A stretch of DNA of 64,000 nucleotides. It comes from Methanomassiliicoccaceae archaeon DOK (lineage in GTDB: Archaea; Thermoplasmatota; Thermoplasmata; Methanomassiliicoccales; Methanomethylophilaceae). This document shows, piece after piece, positions 6,556 to 24,809 of this stretch. The number at the start of each line of letters is the position of its first letter. The first letter of the stretch is position 1. A program made the position numbers and the translations under genes. The notes below the pieces were generated by a model that was not told the DNA's origin, did no database searches, and worked only from the letters and a program-made list of their open reading frames with translations. Location of the stretch: the NCBI GenBank assembly GCA_009911715.1, contig CP047880.1, positions 558,001-622,000 on the forward strand, written 5' to 3'.

Positions 6556-9500
6556 GATTGAGAACTCTCGTATCTGACAACACTCTCAAACAGCTCCTCA
6601 GAAGACGCGGATACCGGATGTAATCGAGAACTCTCGTATTTGACAACACTCTCAAACTTTCGGCAAATTATTCCCGAAAATGCACAAGATCGAGAACTCT
6701 CGTATTTGACAACACTCTCAAACCATCCCATCTCTTGATCGCCTCTTCGCGTGGATCGAGAACTCTCGTATTTGACAACACTCTCAAACGGACTGATGGC
6801 TGACGGGCCCGAGGACCTCGATCGAGAACTCTCGTATTTGACAACACTCTCAAACTACCCCATGCGGTTTTACCCGCATTTCCCAGATCGAGAACTCTCG
6901 TATTTACAACACTCTCAAACTCGTGCCGGTGTAGGATTTCTCGATAGTGAGATCGAGAACTCTCGTATTTGACAACACTCTCAAACATGACGACATAGCC
7001 AAGCCTCTCCAGTCCAGATCGAGAACTCTCGTATTTGACAACACTCTCAAACCACCACGATGAGCAGCGGGATGATGTTGATGATCGAGAACTCTCGTAT
7101 TTGACAACACTCTCAAACACGCCGAGTAGTCGTTGATCCTGATCGCGTGATCGAGAACTCTCGTATTTGACAACACTCTCAAACAAGGTTCAGTGTGCAT
7201 GGTGGTTCGACTATGATCGAGAACTCTCGTATTTGACAACACTCTCAAACGCATTAGATTCCAGTGGATTGGGATGTCATGATCGAGAACTCTCGTATTT
7301 GACAACACTCTCAAACCTCACCGTTCCACGTAACGCCCTTGTAGGAGATCGAGAACTCTCGTATTTGACAACACTCTCAAACCCGTTCGCCACCGCTGTC
7401 TGACAGTCTCCAGATCGAGAACTCTCGTATTTGACAACACTCTCAAACAAATGACGGGCATGTATGAGAGCCTGAATGGATCGAGAACTCTCGTATTTGA
7501 CAACACTCTCAAACGCGTTCGTCTGGAACCTGAAGCTGAATGAAGATCGAGAACTCTCGTATTTGACAACACTCTCAAACGATGTCCTGCACGTTCCCCC
7601 AGTCCTGCGACGATCGAGAACTCTCGTATTTGACAACACTCTCAAACACGATCTCGGCGATCAGTTCGGCGTCACTCGATCGAGAACTCTCGTATTTGAC
7701 AACACTCTCAAACCGAACCTCTGCCGGTTGTTCTGATCTCCATAGATCGAGAACTCTCGTATTTGACAACACTCTCAAACCTGATGCACACCCCTAACAT
7801 GCCGTTCTCGGATCGAGAACTCTCGTATTTGACAACACTCTCAAACGGATGATCAATGGGAAGGAGTCCTTTCCCTGATCGAGAACTCTCGTATTTGACA
7901 ACACTCTCAAACAAGACATGATGGTGAAAGGATGCGTTTCGAGATCGAGAACTCTCGTATTTGACAACACTCTCAAACAAAGAAGCAGAACAAAGACGGC
8001 AATCGCCGGATCGAGAACTCTCGTATTTGACAACACTCTCAAACATCATTCTCCGACTCGGACCATCCCAGAAAGATCGAGAACTCTCGTATTTGACAAC
8101 ACTCTCAAACACATACATCTACTTCCACGAGATAAAGAAGGATCGAGAACTCTCGTATTTGACAACACTCTCAAACAAACCAAAGAGGGGATGTTCGTGG
8201 CTTCATGATCGAGAACTCTCGTATTTGACAACACTCTCAAACTGAAGACAGCCTTCGACCTGAACGACGGTAGATCGAGAACTCTCGTATTTGACAACAC
8301 TCTCAAACCAAGCTTGTTCTGCTCTGTGGTCAAGTCATGATCGAGAACTCTCGTATTTGACAACACTCTCAAACGTGACAGGAAGGCATCGGAGTTCATC
8401 ATCCGATCGAGAACTCTCGTATTTGACAACACTCTCAAACATAGAGAGGGAGATGATTTCACACATCCCCGATCGAGAACTCTCGTATTTGACAACACTC
8501 TCAAACCGGCCACCGGTCCTCACGGCCGTCTTCGAAGATCGAGAACTCTCGTATTTGACAACACTCTCAAACCGAAGGCGTTCGGTTTCGTAGAACCTGA
8601 TCGATCGAGAACTCTCGTATTTGACAACACTCTCAAACCGCGCGCACGCGATTAAAACCAGTTATCGTGATCGAGAACTCTCGTATTTGACAACACTCTC
8701 AAACAAAATGGTCGTTTTGAAGCAATGATACAGGGATCGAGAACTCTCGTATTTGACAACACTCTCAAACGTGACCATCTTAACGGCGGTTCCTTCGATG
8801 GATCGAGAACTCTCGTATTTGACAACACTCTCAAACAGGTTATCGTAAGGATGCTCTCGAGATCGTGATCGAGAACTCTCGTATTTGACAACACTCTCAA
8901 ACCCACTTCCAATCTTCACACCACCAAGCGTAGATCGAGAACTCTCGTATTTGACAACACTCTCAAACCAGGCCGTTTTGGATAATCCGGATTTTCTCGA
9001 TCGAGAACTCTCGTATTTGACAACACTCTCAAACATGGTTCGATGTTTACCACGGTCTACAATGGATCGAGAACTCTCGTATTTGACAACACTCTCAAAC
9101 GGTCCGGCGTGTACGTCCCCGTCCCCTCTCGATCGAGAACTCTCGTATTTGACAACACTCTCAAACAGGCCGAGAGGCATCGGATCATCTTCACCGGATC
9201 GAGAACTCTCGTATTTGACAACACTCTCAAACTCGGAATCGACAGCCAGGACGCATTCCAGAGATCGAGAACTCTCGTATTTGACAACACTCTCAAACAG
9301 AACACAAACTGGACAAGATCTAACCGCCGATCGAGAACTCTCGTATTTGACAACACTCTCAAACCTTATGAACGGCTTTTTGGATAACAACCGCGATCGA
9401 GAACTCTCGTATTTGACAACACTCTCAAACGCATGTCATCGTATGCCATCTTACCTCATCGATCGAGAACTCTCGTATTTGACAACACTCTCAAACCATG

Positions 9501-9826
9501 CGCCACGTCTCCCAGATCCGTGGGCAGATCGAGAACTCTCGTATTTGACAACACTCTCAAACAACCTACCTAACCTTGTTCCGATGAAGATTGATCGAGA
9601 ACTCTCGTATTTGACAACACTCTCAAACCACTATCTCGTCGCCCTCTTCATCCCTCTTGATCGAGAACTCTCGTATTTGACAACACTCTCAAACGGAATT
9701 CCTCGGTATCATCAGTCATAAGGAGATCGAGAACTCTCGTATTTGACAACACTCTCAAACACATCTCAGAACCTCCCGACCTTGACGGTCGATCGAGAAC
9801 TCTCGTATTTGACAACACTCTCAAAC
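6556..9826 (-). CRISPR. Type II-A CRISPR array, 50 repeats and 49 spacers
   Basis: Fifty 36-base repeats, mostly at a 66-base period, give 49 spacers: 47 of 30 bases and two of 31 (7581-7611 and 7714-7744). Read on the minus strand the repeat starts GTTTGAGAGTGTTGTC and ends with the palindrome CGAGAGTTCTCG followed by ATC. From about 6951 to 9826 all repeats appear identical. The low-coordinate end is degenerate: the repeat at 6556 has two substitutions, that at 6622 differs at its outer base, and that at 6886 lacks one G. Degeneracy marks the old, leader-distal end, so new spacers enter at 9826 beside csn2. No AT-rich leader separates csn2 from the array. I saw no spacer clearly matching elsewhere in the window, but did not search exhaustively. 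Confidence 0.98.
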
Positions 9827-10510
9827 CTCAAATATGTTGTCACGTGGAAAAAGCACTATCTCGCATTGATCTGAGTCGATTATTACTGCTGGATGAGTGT
9901 GGTCAGTGAATCTGCTGTTCACCATTAATACGGGAGTTTGAAGGTATATGATGTTTCTCAAGAGTTCTCTGTATCTTTCTTCGGACATGTATTCTGAGAT
10001 ATTGACCATTACCACCAGCCTGTATTTTGTGTATTTCCCAACCAAACGTATGAAATCGTAGACCCTTTCATCGAGGTTGTGACTCTCTGAGAACCTGAAC
10101 TGCAAGGCCTTGACTATCTCGGATGCGGTGGGCTCTGTCAATTCGAATTCCGTTTCAATCTCTGCAGCAATATTGCACATGTGGCTTCTCAGGTCGCCCA
10201 GAAGCTCTGAGGTGCGAACATAATAGTTTTCTGAAAGTGCATTGGTAGTCAGTGTCTGTGTGAATCCACTCAGTATCTCCTTTCTATTTGGGTTTGCATC
10301 GAAGGGCCCCATGGAAAGCAATACTGATTTGTGAAACTCATGGATCACTCCGTTGGATGACAGTACAAACCGTCCATCGAATCCCCGAATTTGATCAATC
10401 ATTTCTGACATTAATTTTCCTAGGAAATCAGGGTTTTCGACAATCAGTTGCCAAACAGGCGAGATGTCAAAATCCATGCATTCAGATAGCAAATAATGGC
10501 TAAGTTTCAA
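9821..10510 (-). CDS. csn2: Csn2, type II-A spacer-acquisition protein
   Basis: A 229-residue protein in the canonical fourth position of a type II-A operon. The N-terminus 'MKLSHYLLSECMDFDI' and the segment 'LMSEMIDQIRGFDGRFVLSS' fit the Csn2 family; Csn2 forms a tetrameric ring that binds DNA ends during spacer acquisition. Length fits (about 220 residues in streptococci). The start is TTG 10510, overlapping the cas2 stop as TTGA. The gene end is unusual: the last codons read ATA TTT GAG GTT TGA, and the stop plus the codon before it lie within the first CRISPR repeat (9821-9826). The gene is AT-richer than the host background. Confidence 0.85.
   Translation of the reverse strand: MKLSHYLLSECMDFDISPVWQLIVENPDFLGKLMSEMIDQIRGFDGRFVLSSNGVIHEFHKSVLLSMGPFDANPNRKEILSGFTQTLTTNALSENYYVRTSELLGDLRSHMCNIAAEIETEFELTEPTASEIVKALQFRFSESHNLDERVYDFIRLVGKYTKYRLVVMVNISEYMSEERYRELLRNIIYLQTPVLMVNSRFTDHTHPAVIIDSDQCEIVLFPRDNIFEV
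9827..9833 (-). promoter_or_regulatory. Leader-anchoring motif ATTTGAG inside csn2
   Basis: On the minus strand the seven bases directly before the first repeat are ATTTGAG. The same motif at the leader-repeat junction directs polarised spacer integration in one group of streptococcal type II-A systems (established knowledge). Here it overlaps the codons for the last Ile-Phe-Glu of Csn2, so the leader function appears embedded in coding sequence. I see no promoter that must lie here. Confidence 0.6.
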
Positions 10511-10827
10511 AGTACCACGAACCGGTCTAAGGTATCTAAGATCTCTTTTTGGGATTCGCCGACCAGGAACTCCATTTCCTGGTATTGTCTTTCAGAAACG
10601 GAAAGCAGAATCACGTTGCCTGTTTTCGGACGGTTGTTACGGAGATTCTTCCTGACGGTCTCGGCAGCAGTCGCATTTATGGCTATTTTAGAATACACAG
10701 ATTCCTGAATCATGATGAATCCCTGCATCTGCAGGTATTTCCGGAAACGTGTATACTGACGTCTGTCTTCAGCTGTTTTCACAGGGAGATCGAAGTACAC
10801 TATCAATCTCATCGCTCTTACTCTCAT
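10507..10827 (-). CDS. cas2: Cas2, type II-A
   Basis: A 106-residue Cas2 with the N-terminal 'MRLIVYFDLPVKTAEDRRQY' strand and the type II 'FRKYLQMQGFIMIQESVYSK' segment. Cas2 is the structural dimer that bridges two Cas1 dimers in the spacer integrase. I chose ATG 10827 by alignment with streptococcal Cas2, whose start also precedes the MR-hydrophobic strand by a few residues; ATG 10812 is possible. It overlaps the 3' end of cas1 by 59 bases and its TGA overlaps the TTG start of csn2, so the operon is tightly coupled. Confidence 0.92.
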   Translation of the reverse strand: MRVRAMRLIVYFDLPVKTAEDRRQYTRFRKYLQMQGFIMIQESVYSKIAINATAAETVRKNLRNNRPKTGNVILLSVSERQYQEMEFLVGESQKEILDTLDRFVVL

Positions 10828-11689
10828 AGTGGCAGAACCTAAGCCCGAAAACATCTCTAGAATCCAGGGAATCAACAACACTTTTCACATAAATGCGCAA
10901 GGCGTTTCCGAGATACTGCGTTTTTCCATTCATTTCCACGGTGCGATTCAGGATGGATGCGAGCATCCGTTTTGATTCTGGAGACAATCCCTTATCAGAC
11001 ATGTCTAGTACCATTCTGTCCACAAGTGGGCGAAGGGGCTCCATTAAATCACTCCCCAGATTGTAGTGGTTGGAGGCGTTGTCATGGAACACCCCCAACT
11101 CTGTTGAATATCCTAGAGACACGATTTCACGGTTGACTGCAGACAGTAGGATTGCATATCCGTAGTTCAGCAGGGAGTTAATCTCGCAACTGTTCCTTCT
11201 GGAGAAATCATCACCGAACAACGTGTTGAAATACACCTTGGCTGCATGACCTTCGCGGTTCGTACAATCATTGAACTCCACCGATTCTGCGTATCTGCGA
11301 AGAAGTTCAGCCCTGTCATAATCAAATCTCTCCAGAAGGTCGGCCTGGCAGTTGATTTTCTCCGATACAATCTGTGACCAGATTCTTCCCTTGGTTTCAT
11401 CGTCCCACTAGATCTGTGCTCTCAGTTTCCCCGGAGAGTCATGGCAGCCGTACAACGGCGTCATTTCTGACATGGGATTATGCATCTCATCGCAGAAGAT
11501 CACCTTGATATTTCTTCTGCACAGTTCACACAGCAACATCGACGTGAGGGAGACTGCAGTGCTTTCGATCATGAGCACCGATATCTCGGACAGATGTATC
11601 TTCCGGACATCGGTGCCCCTGATGACCAGATATCCAAGTTTCAGGTCGAGCTTGGAATTACTGGATATGACCACGGTTCTCCAGGTCAT
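10769..11689 (-). CDS. cas1: Cas1 integrase with one in-frame amber codon (candidate pyrrolysine protein)
   Basis: One frame from ATG 11689 to the stop at 10769 encodes a full-length type II-A Cas1 of 306 residues if the TAG at 11410-11408 (codon 94) is read through. Before it stand 'TWRTVVISSNSKLDL' and 'MTPLYGCHDSPGKLRAQI'; after it the same frame continues 'WDDETKGRIWSQIV' and 'NREGHAAKVYFNTLFGDDF'. The join matches streptococcal Cas1, where a Ser precedes the Trp. The presumed active-site residues (Glu in NREGHAA, His in GVFHDN, Glu in DLMEPLRP) all lie after the amber codon, so the 93-residue product would be inactive. In Methanomassiliicoccales TAG encodes pyrrolysine; a real nonsense mutation is the alternative. 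The start is one base after the cas9 stop. Confidence 0.9.
11408..11410 (-). other. In-frame TAG in cas1
   Basis: The codon between Ile93 and Trp95 of Cas1 is TAG on the minus strand. Both sides are in the same frame with no indel, and conserved Cas1 sequence continues without a gap. No other in-frame stop interrupts the 306-codon frame. Confidence 0.9.
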
Positions 11690-11690
11690 G

Positions 11691-14600
11691 TCAGTTTATT
11701 CTCACTTTATTCTCCCAAAGGCCGGAAGGCGACTGGTTGATGATGAACACTTCTGCAGATTTCCTGTCGGGAAGTTTCTTGTTTACCTGAATCCTTCCCG
11801 CGACCGTAGATCCTTTGATTGCTTTGAGATTGGCGTTTGAGTTGTTGCAGTGGAAGGCAAGGAGTATCGAGTTCAACAAAGATGCCTGCTCCAAGCAATC
11901 GAGCTCTTCGAATTCGATCCTACCAGAATGGAGGTTCTCACAGAATGCGGTCATGAACTGCTCATATGGTTTTGAACTGGCCCTCTGCGCCAGATAATCA
12001 TAGAGATCCATGTTCATGTCCTGGGTTATTCCGTAGTATTCTGCTGGTCTGATAACCCTGTCCTTACGATCCGAATCGAATTTGAAGAGGATTTTACAAT
12101 ACTTCATTCTTGTATCATCCATCAGGAGGTTGACGGCGTTGTAGAACAGGATGCTGTCGCCAGTTCTTCCACCTATATGCATCCTGAATCCGTTCCATTC
12201 GAAGAGGGTGTTTAACCTGATTACGGGAATGATTACTTCTACGTCCTTTCCCATTGTCTCGCTGTGATATCTGCGTATGGAATCCGGTTTGTCGATTGCA
12301 CCCAGCATGTAAACCGGCACGACTTCTAAGGACCGGATGGTTCTTTTCTTGTCTTTGTATTCCACAAGGGAATAGCAGGCTCCCGTTGGTTTATTGTACC
12401 CACCATACTTTTCGGTATCCATCCCTCTCTTCCTTTCGATGGCGTTTCCTTTAGCTCTCACAAGGTTGTCATCGAAAAATGCGCCCTTCTTTACAAACGG
12501 TTGTTTGGTGAACAGTATGTTGTTGCGTCTCATATTCTTTAGAACAATCCTCATGCTTCCATTTTCCCCGGGTATCCATGCGGTGTTTCCGCTCCTGGAG
12601 ACTTCGCTATCGTACATCTTGGAAAGATTGTAATGTTCGCCAGAGTCGATAAAATTCCGATAGTCCTTGGTGAATTTGGTGTCATACACGTTACCAACAA
12701 CAATATTCAAGTATGCGTCCTTAGCGTGATGATAGTCGTTTATGGATCTGCATTTGATCATGACGTCCGATCCGCTGTTTTGGCGGAATTCTGACACGAG
12801 ACCTGCTTTGACATACACAATCTCTGTGTCTCCTCCGAAGAGCCTTCCAAGAATCTCTACGGCCCCTTTGACAGATTGGCTAGTCTCCACCAGCTGACGG
12901 CTGATGAATCTGCTGAGTTCGTCCTGGCTGAAATCATCTTTTCTGACTAGGCGTGAATATTTCTCCGAAGTGATGTACTTCTTATCACGCAGGATATCCC
13001 ACATGGGCTTCATGCTCATCTGTACTTCGGGAGCTATGGGGAATCTGTTGCTCTTCTCTGAGTTGCATTTCTTGCATGAAAGGACCAGATTGTTGTGGAT
13101 GCTGTCATCCTTGATTAGTGACTGAGGGTAGATGTGGTCTCTGTCAACGGAGTCTGTGTTTCCAAGTTCCTCTATGTCGATTTTGCGACCACAATACATG
13201 CATCTGCCCAGCTGAGTGTAGTAGAGATACATATTGCGACTTTTGAGGTCTGCATCACTTCTGCTTTCCAGATCTGTTAACCATTGGGAATCCTCCCGAC
13301 AGGCCTTGTACAACTGGATCAACGTGTTTCTCCTGGATTCGGTGCGTTTCTTCTTGGAAGGGTCTATGTTCTGACGTGTCGTCTCCACGAAAACCTTCTT
13401 CGGAGGATGTCCGATGAATTTCATGACATCCTTTGCCACACATACGGTTCTCCATATGCCACGTTTAACAGCAGGAGAGACATACAACCTGTCCACAGAT
13501 CCGTAATCGATGTCTGCATCTGTCGTCATCTCCTGATTAATTTTCTCAATCTGTTTCTCGAATCCATATCTGGATAGTACTTCCATCAGGTTGTACTGGG
13601 TGTTCTCCATGATGTCCAGGATACAGGCATCTCTGCCGAGTTCAGGACTGAATTCATGGAGTCCTGTCAGGAACCTTTTGGACAGCCTCCCCCAGCCTTC
13701 GAATCCGAGTTTGGCAAGCCTTCCTATCTCTTCGTCGGTTAGACGATCGCCGAAATCCGTCTTCAGTTTCCTTCTGATATCTTGGGCTTCTTCGAAAACC
13801 GTTACGATGCGGATAATCTCCTCGCAAAAGTCTCTATCATTTGCCTTCTGTCCGATTATTTCTTTCATAATCGTCAAAGGTCTGAGGGATGTTTTGATGT
13901 CATTATCCATTCCTGTGATCTCTGCATCCTCTCTGCCGTCCAATACTCCGATACTAACAAGATATTTTGATACGGCGTTCTTGGTCACGCGACCTTTTCT
14001 ATCGGGATTTTCGAACAGGTCAGAGACCATGCGTTTTTTGATGTCGACAGGTACACGGTCACCATTGACACGTATGTTGTTCAGTTCATTGTATAATGTG
14101 AAGTACGAATACACGATGGAATTTTTGGGAAGGACCTTCTCTCCAATCATGTATGTGCACATGCTTGTGAGATTCTCCATGAACGCTTCTGCACTTGCTT
14201 CTCTGTCTACCACGTCATCGAAGTTCCAGGGTCTCACCGGGGTGTTGGATTTGCGGACAGCCCATGATCTGTTTACAGCACCCATGGGTGCTGATGTATT
14301 CAGAGGCCCTACATAATATGGAATTCTGAAGCCCTGAATCATGATTACCTTGTCAGCCGTTGTCAGCCCATCCTCGTTCACAGTTTTTAGGAATGGGTAG
14401 AAGCGGGATGCGTTTTCAAGGATCTTGATCATCTCATCTTTATGGATTGTGTACGGGAACACACTGTTAGTCTTTGAGGTCTGTTTAGGCATGAACGTCC
14501 CGTCGGAGAGGCGCGTCATCATATCGTTGTATTCTGGATCGTTTTTGGCTTCGGTTTTTGATAAGACGGACAGGCAGAATTTACAGAATTCCTCCTGATT

Positions 14601-15701
14601 GCAGCTTTTCTCGGGTTTGATCTTTCCACATTTGCCAGAGTAACTGCAGTAGTTACCCATGATAGTGCCACTTTTGAAGACATCCTTGTACATGTCGCTG
14701 GCATACTTACGAACCGCCTTTTTCAGCAGAGCCAGATCCGAGCGGTGCTGCTCATACGATGCAATTTTTGCATACGATATGGAGCGATGTCCTTTCAGAA
14801 GAGATGATAGTACTGACCAGTTGTACACCTGCTTGACGATTCTCAGAGTGTTCCACTGGTCTTCGTCTAAGATGTCTTCGAGTTCTGCCATCTTGTCTTC
14901 GATGGAATTATCGGAGAATGATATGCCGTCAGATTCTATGGAATCGTCCTCAAAGATGTCTGAAGGTTTTACCTTGGCTCCTGCCAGAAGCTCTCCGAGT
15001 TTGCTCTCTGGTTTAGTGGAACAGCCAAGAGCCTCCTTCACGAGTCTTTTGCGGTCTGTCACACGTATGTTGCGATCAGTGAGGATTCCATTCAGAATCT
15101 CATAATCGGAGACATTCAGATCCATGCCGTACTTCATCACATCCTGAATCAGTAAGTCGATGATTTCCTTGAAGTCAGGAATGCCGTCTGAACTGATGCT
15201 ACTGAAGATGAAATGGCCCCTGAATTTGATGATGTGATGTAGAGCAAGGTAAACAAGCCTGATGTCTGGCTTCTCATCTGTTTCCATCAGGAATTTGCGA
15301 AGATGATAGACGGTTGGGAATTTCGAGTGGAATTCTTTGTCTGTGAAGTTCTTGTCGTTAAACAAGCTGTTGCTTTGTTTGATAGTTTTATCTTCAACAT
15401 GCAGTCCGCTCTCGTCCAGTCTCTGGAAGAAAGAGGGGTCTATCTTGCAGACCTCTTCATCAAACAGTTCGCGAAGGAGTGCCACTCTTTGTTTGCGACG
15501 TTCTAGTCTGCGTCTTGCACATCTGTGCATTCTTCTTTCGGCGGCTGTTTTCCCTTCTTCGAAGAGATGTACACCCCACATCGCTTTTCCTCCGCATTCG
15601 AGAATGTTGTACTCCGGGTCTGTGGCTGCCCAACCCAGGGAGCTCGTTCCGATGTCGAGTCCGAGATAGTACTCGTAATCCGCGATATTTAGTCTATTCA
15701 T
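11691..15701 (-). CDS. cas9: Cas9 RNA-guided endonuclease, type II-A
   Basis: A 1336-residue Cas9, close in length to the S. pyogenes enzyme. All nuclease motifs are present: RuvC-I 'YYLGLDIGTSSLGWA' (Asp16), the arginine-rich bridge helix 'RRMHRCARRRLERRKQR', RuvC-II 'KKVFVETTRQN' (Glu773), HNH 'DRDHIYPQS' (His856) with Asn880, and RuvC-III 'NDYHHAKDAYLN' (His992, Asp995). It should cleave both strands of target DNA guided by crRNA and tracrRNA. The HNH region has two CxxC pairs (Cys834/837 and Cys876/879), a probable zinc site absent from SpCas9. The start ATG 15701 has a TATA box ~25 bases upstream, implying a leaderless mRNA. AT-richer than flanking genes, consistent with transfer from Firmicutes-like bacteria (inference). 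Confidence 0.98.
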   Translation of the reverse strand: MNRLNIADYEYYLGLDIGTSSLGWAATDPEYNILECGGKAMWGVHLFEEGKTAAERRMHRCARRRLERRKQRVALLRELFDEEVCKIDPSFFQRLDESGLHVEDKTIKQSNSLFNDKNFTDKEFHSKFPTVYHLRKFLMETDEKPDIRLVYLALHHIIKFRGHFIFSSISSDGIPDFKEIIDLLIQDVMKYGMDLNVSDYEILNGILTDRNIRVTDRKRLVKEALGCSTKPESKLGELLAGAKVKPSDIFEDDSIESDGISFSDNSIEDKMAELEDILDEDQWNTLRIVKQVYNWSVLSSLLKGHRSISYAKIASYEQHRSDLALLKKAVRKYASDMYKDVFKSGTIMGNYCSYSGKCGKIKPEKSCNQEEFCKFCLSVLSKTEAKNDPEYNDMMTRLSDGTFMPKQTSKTNSVFPYTIHKDEMIKILENASRFYPFLKTVNEDGLTTADKVIMIQGFRIPYYVGPLNTSAPMGAVNRSWAVRKSNTPVRPWNFDDVVDREASAEAFMENLTSMCTYMIGEKVLPKNSIVYSYFTLYNELNNIRVNGDRVPVDIKKRMVSDLFENPDRKGRVTKNAVSKYLVSIGVLDGREDAEITGMDNDIKTSLRPLTIMKEIIGQKANDRDFCEEIIRIVTVFEEAQDIRRKLKTDFGDRLTDEEIGRLAKLGFEGWGRLSKRFLTGLHEFSPELGRDACILDIMENTQYNLMEVLSRYGFEKQIEKINQEMTTDADIDYGSVDRLYVSPAVKRGIWRTVCVAKDVMKFIGHPPKKVFVETTRQNIDPSKKKRTESRRNTLIQLYKACREDSQWLTDLESRSDADLKSRNMYLYYTQLGRCMYCGRKIDIEELGNTDSVDRDHIYPQSLIKDDSIHNNLVLSCKKCNSEKSNRFPIAPEVQMSMKPMWDILRDKKYITSEKYSRLVRKDDFSQDELSRFISRQLVETSQSVKGAVEILGRLFGGDTEIVYVKAGLVSEFRQNSGSDVMIKCRSINDYHHAKDAYLNIVVGNVYDTKFTKDYRNFIDSGEHYNLSKMYDSEVSRSGNTAWIPGENGSMRIVLKNMRRNNILFTKQPFVKKGAFFDDNLVRAKGNAIERKRGMDTEKYGGYNKPTGACYSLVEYKDKKRTIRSLEVVPVYMLGAIDKPDSIRRYHSETMGKDVEVIIPVIRLNTLFEWNGFRMHIGGRTGDSILFYNAVNLLMDDTRMKYCKILFKFDSDRKDRVIRPAEYYGITQDMNMDLYDYLAQRASSKPYEQFMTAFCENLHSGRIEFEELDCLEQASLLNSILLAFHCNNSNANLKAIKGSTVAGRIQVNKKLPDRKSAEVFIINQSPSGLWENKVRIN

Positions 15702-15720
15702 AATAGAGTAATTTGCTGAC

Positions 15721-15732
15721 TTATTTATATAG
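15721..15732 (-). promoter_or_regulatory. TATA box for the cas9 operon
   Basis: On the minus strand CTATATAAATAA is centred about 26 bases upstream of the cas9 ATG, the normal archaeal TATA-to-start distance, so transcription should begin at or next to the start codon. It would drive cas9-cas1-cas2-csn2 and perhaps the array. Confidence 0.7.
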
Positions 15733-15737
15733 TGAAG

Positions 15738-15747
15738 TTATAAATAA
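15738..15747 (+). promoter_or_regulatory. TATA box for tracrRNA
   Basis: TTATAAATAA on the plus strand predicts transcription from about 15765, some 45 bases before the anti-repeat. It lies back-to-back with the cas9 TATA box, so the two divergent promoters nearly touch and could be co-regulated. A second AT-rich stretch (15770-15785) might give a shorter transcript. Confidence 0.5.
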
Positions 15748-15794
15748 TTAGAATCAAGGACCTAAGTACAAATAATTAATTTTATCTATTATTG

Positions 15795-15895
15795 CATACA
15801 ATACAAGTTCGACAACACGAGTTCAAATAAGGCATAACCGGAATCACCCGAAAGGGTCCCGCAATTGGCGGGGATCTCGTTTGTCAATATTTTTT
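15795..15895 (+). ncRNA. tracrRNA of the type II-A system
   Basis: The anti-repeat is GACAACAC (15811-15818), GAGT (15819-15822), TCAAAT (15823-15828). Against the repeat start this gives an 8-bp upper stem (GUGUUGUC:GACAACAC), a bulge of GA opposite GAGU, and a 6-bp lower stem (GUUUGA:UCAAAU, one G-U pair). This equals the S. pyogenes layout (6-bp lower stem, 2/4-nt bulge). Next comes AAGGCATAACCG (15829-15840), nexus-like, then hairpin ACCC-GAAA-GGGT (15846-15857), hairpin CCCGC-AATTG-GCGGG (15858-15872) and a six-T run at 15890-15895 as terminator. The 5' end is approximate. It lies between cas9 and the nuclease-helicase gene and is transcribed away from cas9. Confidence 0.88.
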
Positions 15896-23405: not shown

Positions 23406-24809
23406 ATGGTCAGACTCATCGGCAGAGACAGGGAGGTCCAGGAGCTAGAGGCGTTCGTCTCGGATCCCACCGTGCGCGGATGTGCCGTGTATGGCGTGCG
23501 CCAGGTCGGCAAGACGACCCTCCTCCGTCACGTCGCATCGGGACACCGGTCCGTCTACATACAGGCCGTCAAGGGATCGGAGGAGACGATAGTCGAGCGC
23601 GCCATGTCGTATGTGCGCGAGTCCTTCACGGTCCAGGACGGTCCGAAGACGCTGTCCGGACTCCTGGACACGATAGGAGTGATATGCTCGGAGGCCCCCA
23701 CCCTGGTCATCATAGACGAGTATCCCTACATGTCCAAGTCGCTGAAGCATGCCGACAGCATGCTGCAGGGGTTCATAGACGGTCCCCTGGCGGAGACAGG
23801 ATCGAAGATAATCCTGTGCGGATCCCAGATGTCGTCCATGCTGGACATCGTGAAGGACGACGCCAATCCCCTCTACAACAGGCTCAGATGGAGCATGGAG
23901 GTGAGGGAGATGTCTTTCGTCGACACGTGTCTGTTCCATCCGGAGATGGACGATCTGGACCAGATGAGGATGTACATGGTCTTCGGAGGGATGCCCCTCA
24001 ACCACATCGATTTCTCCGGTCCGTCCTTCAGGGAGGTCATACAGAGGAGGTTCCTCTCGCCAGGTCTGCCTCTGAGCAACATCGCCCGCGCTCGCATCGG
24101 GTCGGAGCTCGCGGACGTGGACGCATGCGAATCCATAATCCGTGCCATCGCAGCGGGCCGCACCAGTCTGAAGGAGATAACGCAGCACACCGGAATCAAC
24201 ACCAGCACATGTTCGAAGCACATCGCGAGGATGGAGGGTGTAGGCATAATCGGAAGGTACCATCCGATGGCGGGAGCCCCCGAGAGGCCGAGGTACAGGA
24301 TAGAGGACGGTCTGGTGGGGCTGTGGTACACGGTGTTCGACGATCTGGACGAGTTCTCGATGCCCGTGGACGTCGGGAAGAGGTACGAACTGGTGGAGAG
24401 CGGGATCAACACGTACCTCGGACATCTGTTCGAAAAGTTCTGCGCGGGGTACATGACCCGCCACTACGCCTGCGATGAGATGGGGTCGTGGTGGGGGGTC
24501 GAGGTGGACGAGGACGGTGACAGGGTCGGGGTCGACATAGACATCGTCGCGAAGGTCAGGGAGTCGGGCAGGAGGTTGAGCGTGTATGCGGAATGCAGGT
24601 TCCGCAACAGGATGATGAAGAAAACCGACCTCGACAGGCTCGAGCGCCGCGCCACAGCGCTGGACGACAGGGCGAACCTGGTCCTGTTCTCCTCGGGCGG
24701 TTTCGAGAGGCAGCTCCTGGCCGTGGCCCCGGCGAGGGGCGTCGTGCTGATAGGCGTCGACGAGCTGATGGAAAGGGTCCCCGCCCCCCGCCTGCTGGGC
24801 GGGGGCTAG
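23406..24809 (+). CDS. Archaeal-type AAA ATPase with DUF234-like C-terminus (paralogue B)
   Basis: A 467-residue protein of the archaeal ATPase family. Walker A 'YGVRQVGKTTLLRH', Walker B 'TLVIIDEYPYM', arginine-containing 'LRWSMEVREMSF', then a winged-helix segment ('TSLKEITQHTGINTSTCSKH') and a C-terminal D...ExR/K nuclease-like pattern ('VGVDIDIVAKV' and 'VYAECRFRN'). Role unknown. Relatives are multicopy in many archaea. Related to the gene at 31290. The start ATG 23406 directly follows the last of four 29-bp repeats. The stop is TAG, the only terminal TAG I found in the window, with TGA two codons further on. The last codons are encoded by a GC hairpin. Confidence 0.8.
   Translation: MVRLIGRDREVQELEAFVSDPTVRGCAVYGVRQVGKTTLLRHVASGHRSVYIQAVKGSEETIVERAMSYVRESFTVQDGPKTLSGLLDTIGVICSEAPTLVIIDEYPYMSKSLKHADSMLQGFIDGPLAETGSKIILCGSQMSSMLDIVKDDANPLYNRLRWSMEVREMSFVDTCLFHPEMDDLDQMRMYMVFGGMPLNHIDFSGPSFREVIQRRFLSPGLPLSNIARARIGSELADVDACESIIRAIAAGRTSLKEITQHTGINTSTCSKHIARMEGVGIIGRYHPMAGAPERPRYRIEDGLVGLWYTVFDDLDEFSMPVDVGKRYELVESGINTYLGHLFEKFCAGYMTRHYACDEMGSWWGVEVDEDGDRVGVDIDIVAKVRESGRRLSVYAECRFRNRMMKKTDLDRLERRATALDDRANLVLFSSGGFERQLLAVAPARGVVLIGVDELMERVPAPRLLGGG
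24785..24805. terminator. Bidirectional terminator between ATPase B and the AhpD-like gene
   Basis: CCCCCGCC and GGCGGGGG form an 8-bp stem with a 5-base loop at the junction of two convergent genes. It overlaps the last codons of ATPase B and lies 17 bases past the end of the minus-strand gene. Confidence 0.5.

Follow-up and report, generated by a model that had tools for sequence, protein, structure and literature searches.

The locus described here raises the question of what becomes of a cas1 gene whose reading frame contains a TAG: does translation end at that codon, or is the codon read as pyrrolysine (Pyl)? The gene lies in a 64,000-nucleotide window (G000:C1:558001-622000) of an archaeal genome that consists of a single contig of 1.89 Mb with 99.8% completeness. 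Two features define the problem:

10769..11689, minus strand: cas1, type II, 306 codons with the TAG read through (TIGR03639, 301 bits; Cas1_II, 363 bits)
11408..11410, minus strand: the single in-frame TAG, cas1 codon 94, flanked by Ile93 and Trp95

The first-pass annotation of this DNA described one TAG at codon 94 with a conserved Cas1 frame on both sides, and this description was borne out: both Cas1 models match across the TAG, TIGR03639 at residues 3-272 and the PADLOC model Cas1_II at residues 1-285. The same annotation held that Cas1 would lose its catalytic residues without read-through. Indeed, E146, H202 and E217, which align with the Cas1 catalytic residues and are invariant in 80 Cas1 homologues, are all encoded downstream of the TAG. 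A split gene with a translational restart was considered and rejected, as the earliest restart codon possible after the TAG is GTG 137, and a restart there would drop residues 95-136.

For pyrrolysine to be inserted the genome should encode the Pyl machinery, and the first-pass annotation proposed a search for pylT, pylS and pylBCD, whose absence would speak against its reading. All five genes are present. pylS (270 bits) and pylB, pylC and pylD each scored above the NCBIfam cut-off, and the four genes stand in one cluster. Just before pylS is a pylT gene (L002 1262-1329), found by eye, ARAGORN and Rfam both being silent; it folds into a cloverleaf in which the CUA anticodon lies in the loop CUCUAAA, and the anticodon stem is imperfect. 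The pyl cluster adjoins mttB, mtbB and two mtmB-like genes, all of which contain a single in-frame TAG, and the MTTB and Dimeth_Pyl models cross the in-frame TAG in methylamine methyltransferase genes. Judged by gene content, the cells can probably read TAG as Pyl. Within the family, pylS was found in 75 of 102 genomes. Because the genome encodes the pyl genes and the cas1 frame is conserved before as well as after the TAG, a pyrrolysine-containing Cas1 is the best reading of the gene.

The setting of cas1 is as follows:

11691..15701, minus strand: cas9, 1336 aa (TIGR01865, 902 bits over the whole length)
10507..10827, minus strand: cas2 (TIGR01573; the open frame reaches 10881, and the start at ATG 10827 is placed from relatives)
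9821..10510, minus strand: csn2, the type II-A signature gene (TIGR01866, 101 bits)
9827..9833, minus strand: ATTTGAG, the leader-end motif, abutting the first repeat and lying within the csn2 3' end
6556..9826, minus strand: CRISPR array, 50 repeats of 36 nt (GTTTGAGAGTGTTGTCAAATACGAGAGTTCTCGATC) with spacers of ~30 nt
15800..15895, plus strand: tracrRNA candidate, read from the sequence, with anti-repeat, hairpins and T run, divergent from cas9

The genes cas9, cas1, cas2 and csn2 stand in one operon-like run, and window positions 6556-15895, as read from sequence, are a complete type II-A system in an archaeon, with the tracrRNA as a candidate only. The interior repeats of the array are identical, altered repeats being found only towards the far end, and the leader-repeat junction is ATTTGAG/GTTT; the ATTTGAG leader-end motif has been described previously (PMC5382924). 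The csn2 coding end (window 9821-9833) contains this spacer-insertion motif, and the csn2 stop codon is inside the first repeat. Six of the 102 family genomes have csn2, and all six have a leader junction of the same type. In one of the six, G016, which has pylS, csn2 (L157 7759-8436) carries an in-frame TAG at codon 61 (L153 1678-1680), where relatives encode K, N or S. Outside the archaea, the most closely related Cas1 proteins come from Lachnospiraceae and other Clostridia, so the locus was likely gained from bacteria, probably Clostridia. Archaeal Cas9 proteins have been placed in II-C2/II-D (PMC9755519, PMC12669027), and a literature search, carried out mostly without subscription papers, found no description of an archaeal II-A system.

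A functional system is not the only outcome that an in-frame TAG might have. The codon could mark a recent loss of function, with Cas1 ending at 93 residues or read-through being too weak, so that the array would gain no new spacers although interference by Cas9 continued. In favor of such a loss, none of the other Cas1 sequences found shares the TAG. The first-pass annotation had suggested looking for TAG in related cas1 genes, and that comparison gave no second case: TAG is found neither in the matched Cas1 stretches of the other 26 family genomes with Cas1 nor in any of the 80 homologues compared at site 94. The sequence after the TAG was examined for decay at the 60 positions where conservation among bacterial homologues is 95% or more. 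Cas1 keeps 57 of the 60, TAG-free archaeal relatives keep 54-58, and the downstream/upstream identity ratio falls inside the range of TAG-free pairs. Neither measure gave any sign of decay, although a change of recent date would not yet show, and the nearest relative, the Cas1 of G063, is only 66% identical. No breakage was found in the other cas genes of the locus. As a test for recent acquisition, four leader-end spacers were compared with viral contigs, and no exact match was obtained. Since the remainder of cas1 is intact, as is the rest of the adaptation module, and since the same genome combines all five pyl genes with in-frame TAG in further conserved genes, we consider loss of function unlikely.

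The position of the TAG within the protein is informative about the pyrrolysine reading. Site 94 is variable and mostly polar in the 80 homologues (Q, E, A, K, R, S, D or G, mainly the first five), and in archaeal relatives it is Q, R, K, C or S; the neighbors Q92 and W95 show little or no variation. In a structure model of Cas1 (mean pLDDT 82, pTM 0.79), residue 94 falls in the turn that joins helix 85-93 to helix 97-121. Such a site could well accommodate a bulky lysine derivative, which would fit near-neutral capture of the codon. Given the variability of site 94, no special role of Pyl in Cas1 is indicated.

How TAG is used elsewhere in the genome was assessed in 464 kb, on which the genome-wide statistics rest. 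TAG terminates ~1-3% of gene calls there, and the earlier observation that it is nearly unused as a stop in the window holds, with one clear case, the gene at 23406-24809. Low use of TAG stops is nevertheless weak evidence for Pyl decoding, because a pyl-lacking relative is also low, at ~6%. A coding-score scan of internal TAG, TGA and TAA codons proved too noisy, owing to tandem genes and shadow frames, and a domain test was used instead. Within this genome cas1 is not special, as other conserved genes carry in-frame TAG too. The gene for AMP phosphorylase (TIGR03327, 648 bits; L055 8638-10164) has a private in-frame TAG at codon 413, which is CAG, GAG or AAG in most relatives, and the protein is 95% identical to that of its nearest relative on either side of the TAG. 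Standard gene callers would cut this enzyme short. An ABC transporter gene (L061 7385-9175) has TAG at codon 461, within the ATPase domain. Read-through-like TAG codons numbered 0 in 108 gene calls of the pyl-lacking relative G094 and 1 in 141 gene calls of the pyl-bearing G101. In the domain test, which served as a TGA control, ten strong frames reading through TGA proved to be neighboring genes or lacked any domain spanning the TGA. These results bear on the suggestion that the cas1 TAG is a sequencing or assembly error. Only a single base is involved, as such an error would have it, but in-frame TAG recurs in conserved genes where relatives have codons one step away, none of the ten TGA frames was a broken gene, and the genome is a nearly complete single contig. 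We regard an error as very improbable.

The first-pass annotation also suggested that spacer acquisition may depend on the pyrrolysine system and, through its charging, on methylamine-type metabolism. If read-through were regulated in this way, the level of charged tRNA-Pyl would set the amount of full-length Cas1. With the catalytic residues all past the TAG, full-length Cas1 would depend wholly on tRNA-Pyl, as the proposal supposes. However, site 94 is tolerant, the cas1 TAG is not shared by relatives, TAG is also found in metabolic genes unrelated to methylamines, and no RNA structure that might serve as a Pyl signal was found downstream of the cas1 TAG (z +1.09). Further, the synthesis of Pyl from lysine, the rarity of TAG stops and the TAG codons in methylamine-unrelated genes together point to constitutive decoding, an argument also put forward for 'Ca. 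Methanomethylophilus alvus' (PMC4153887). Gating of acquisition by methylamine supply is a guess for which we found no support, and we judge regulated read-through extremely unlikely. A broader form of translational gating, in which imported CRISPR adaptation genes repeatedly gain TAG and new immunity arises only when tRNA-Pyl is charged, also seems very doubtful. Adaptation genes with TAG are cas1 here, csn2 in G016 and, by report, cas1 of 'Ca. Methanomethylophilus alvus'; over six loci TAG occurs in 2 of 24 cas genes, too few to claim enrichment in adaptation genes. In sum, the pyrrolysine Cas1 of the first-pass interpretation is supported by the pyl set and the conserved frame, and its metabolic tuning is not supported.

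We therefore return to pyrrolysine Cas1, which we think likely: UAG at codon 94 would be read as Pyl to give a full-length, active enzyme, the codon having been captured near-neutrally at a tolerant site. From the observed TAG, pyl genes, conserved frame and tolerant site we infer Pyl insertion itself, Cas1 activity and the near-neutral origin. In this scheme, tRNA-Pyl would decode UAG in the cas1 mRNA, and full-length type II-A Cas1 would act together with Cas2, Csn2 and Cas9 in inserting spacers at the leader end marked by ATTTGAG. The TAG would have arisen by mutation of a sense codon, with CAG, AAG and GAG, all a single step from TAG, as the likely sources, and the change would have struck a variable polar site in an inter-helix turn when the genome was already reading TAG as Pyl. 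If so, a CRISPR integrase requires the 22nd amino acid for its synthesis, and an immune system of bacterial origin has become tied to an archaeal code change. An intact cas1 would be hidden from standard gene callers, the gene would fail in hosts without pyl genes, and passive dependence on an expanded code could be studied cleanly with it.

Near-neutral capture has a parallel in tRNA-His guanylyltransferase, in which pyrrolysine reportedly arose by neutral evolution, a case said to have been studied by experiment (Heinemann 2009, cited in PMC8211752). There too, Pyl reportedly sits in an ordinary enzyme at a site that is not essential, in another gene and in another order of methanogens. The locus itself resembles the bacterial type II-A systems of Lachnospiraceae and other Clostridia in its cas9-cas1-cas2-csn2 order and ATTTGAG leader end, with Cas1 proteins up to 56% identical to the one here, and differs from them in its archaeal host and in the TAG in cas1. 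The nearest precedent is 'Ca. Methanomethylophilus alvus', for which a pyrrolysine Cas1 was predicted in 2014 (AGI85630.1; PMC4153887), as one of 16 non-methyltransferase Pyl cases in a genome with 1.6% TAG stops, and for which constitutive pyl expression was argued (PMC4153887). Both are Pyl-decoding Methanomassiliicoccales genomes with very few TAG stops and an in-frame TAG in cas1. The M. alvus protein belongs to a PreFran system, a kind now classed as type V-A, whereas the Cas1 described here is type II-A. The principle of a pyrrolysine Cas1 is therefore not new, and the present case would be a second such Cas1, from another CRISPR type.
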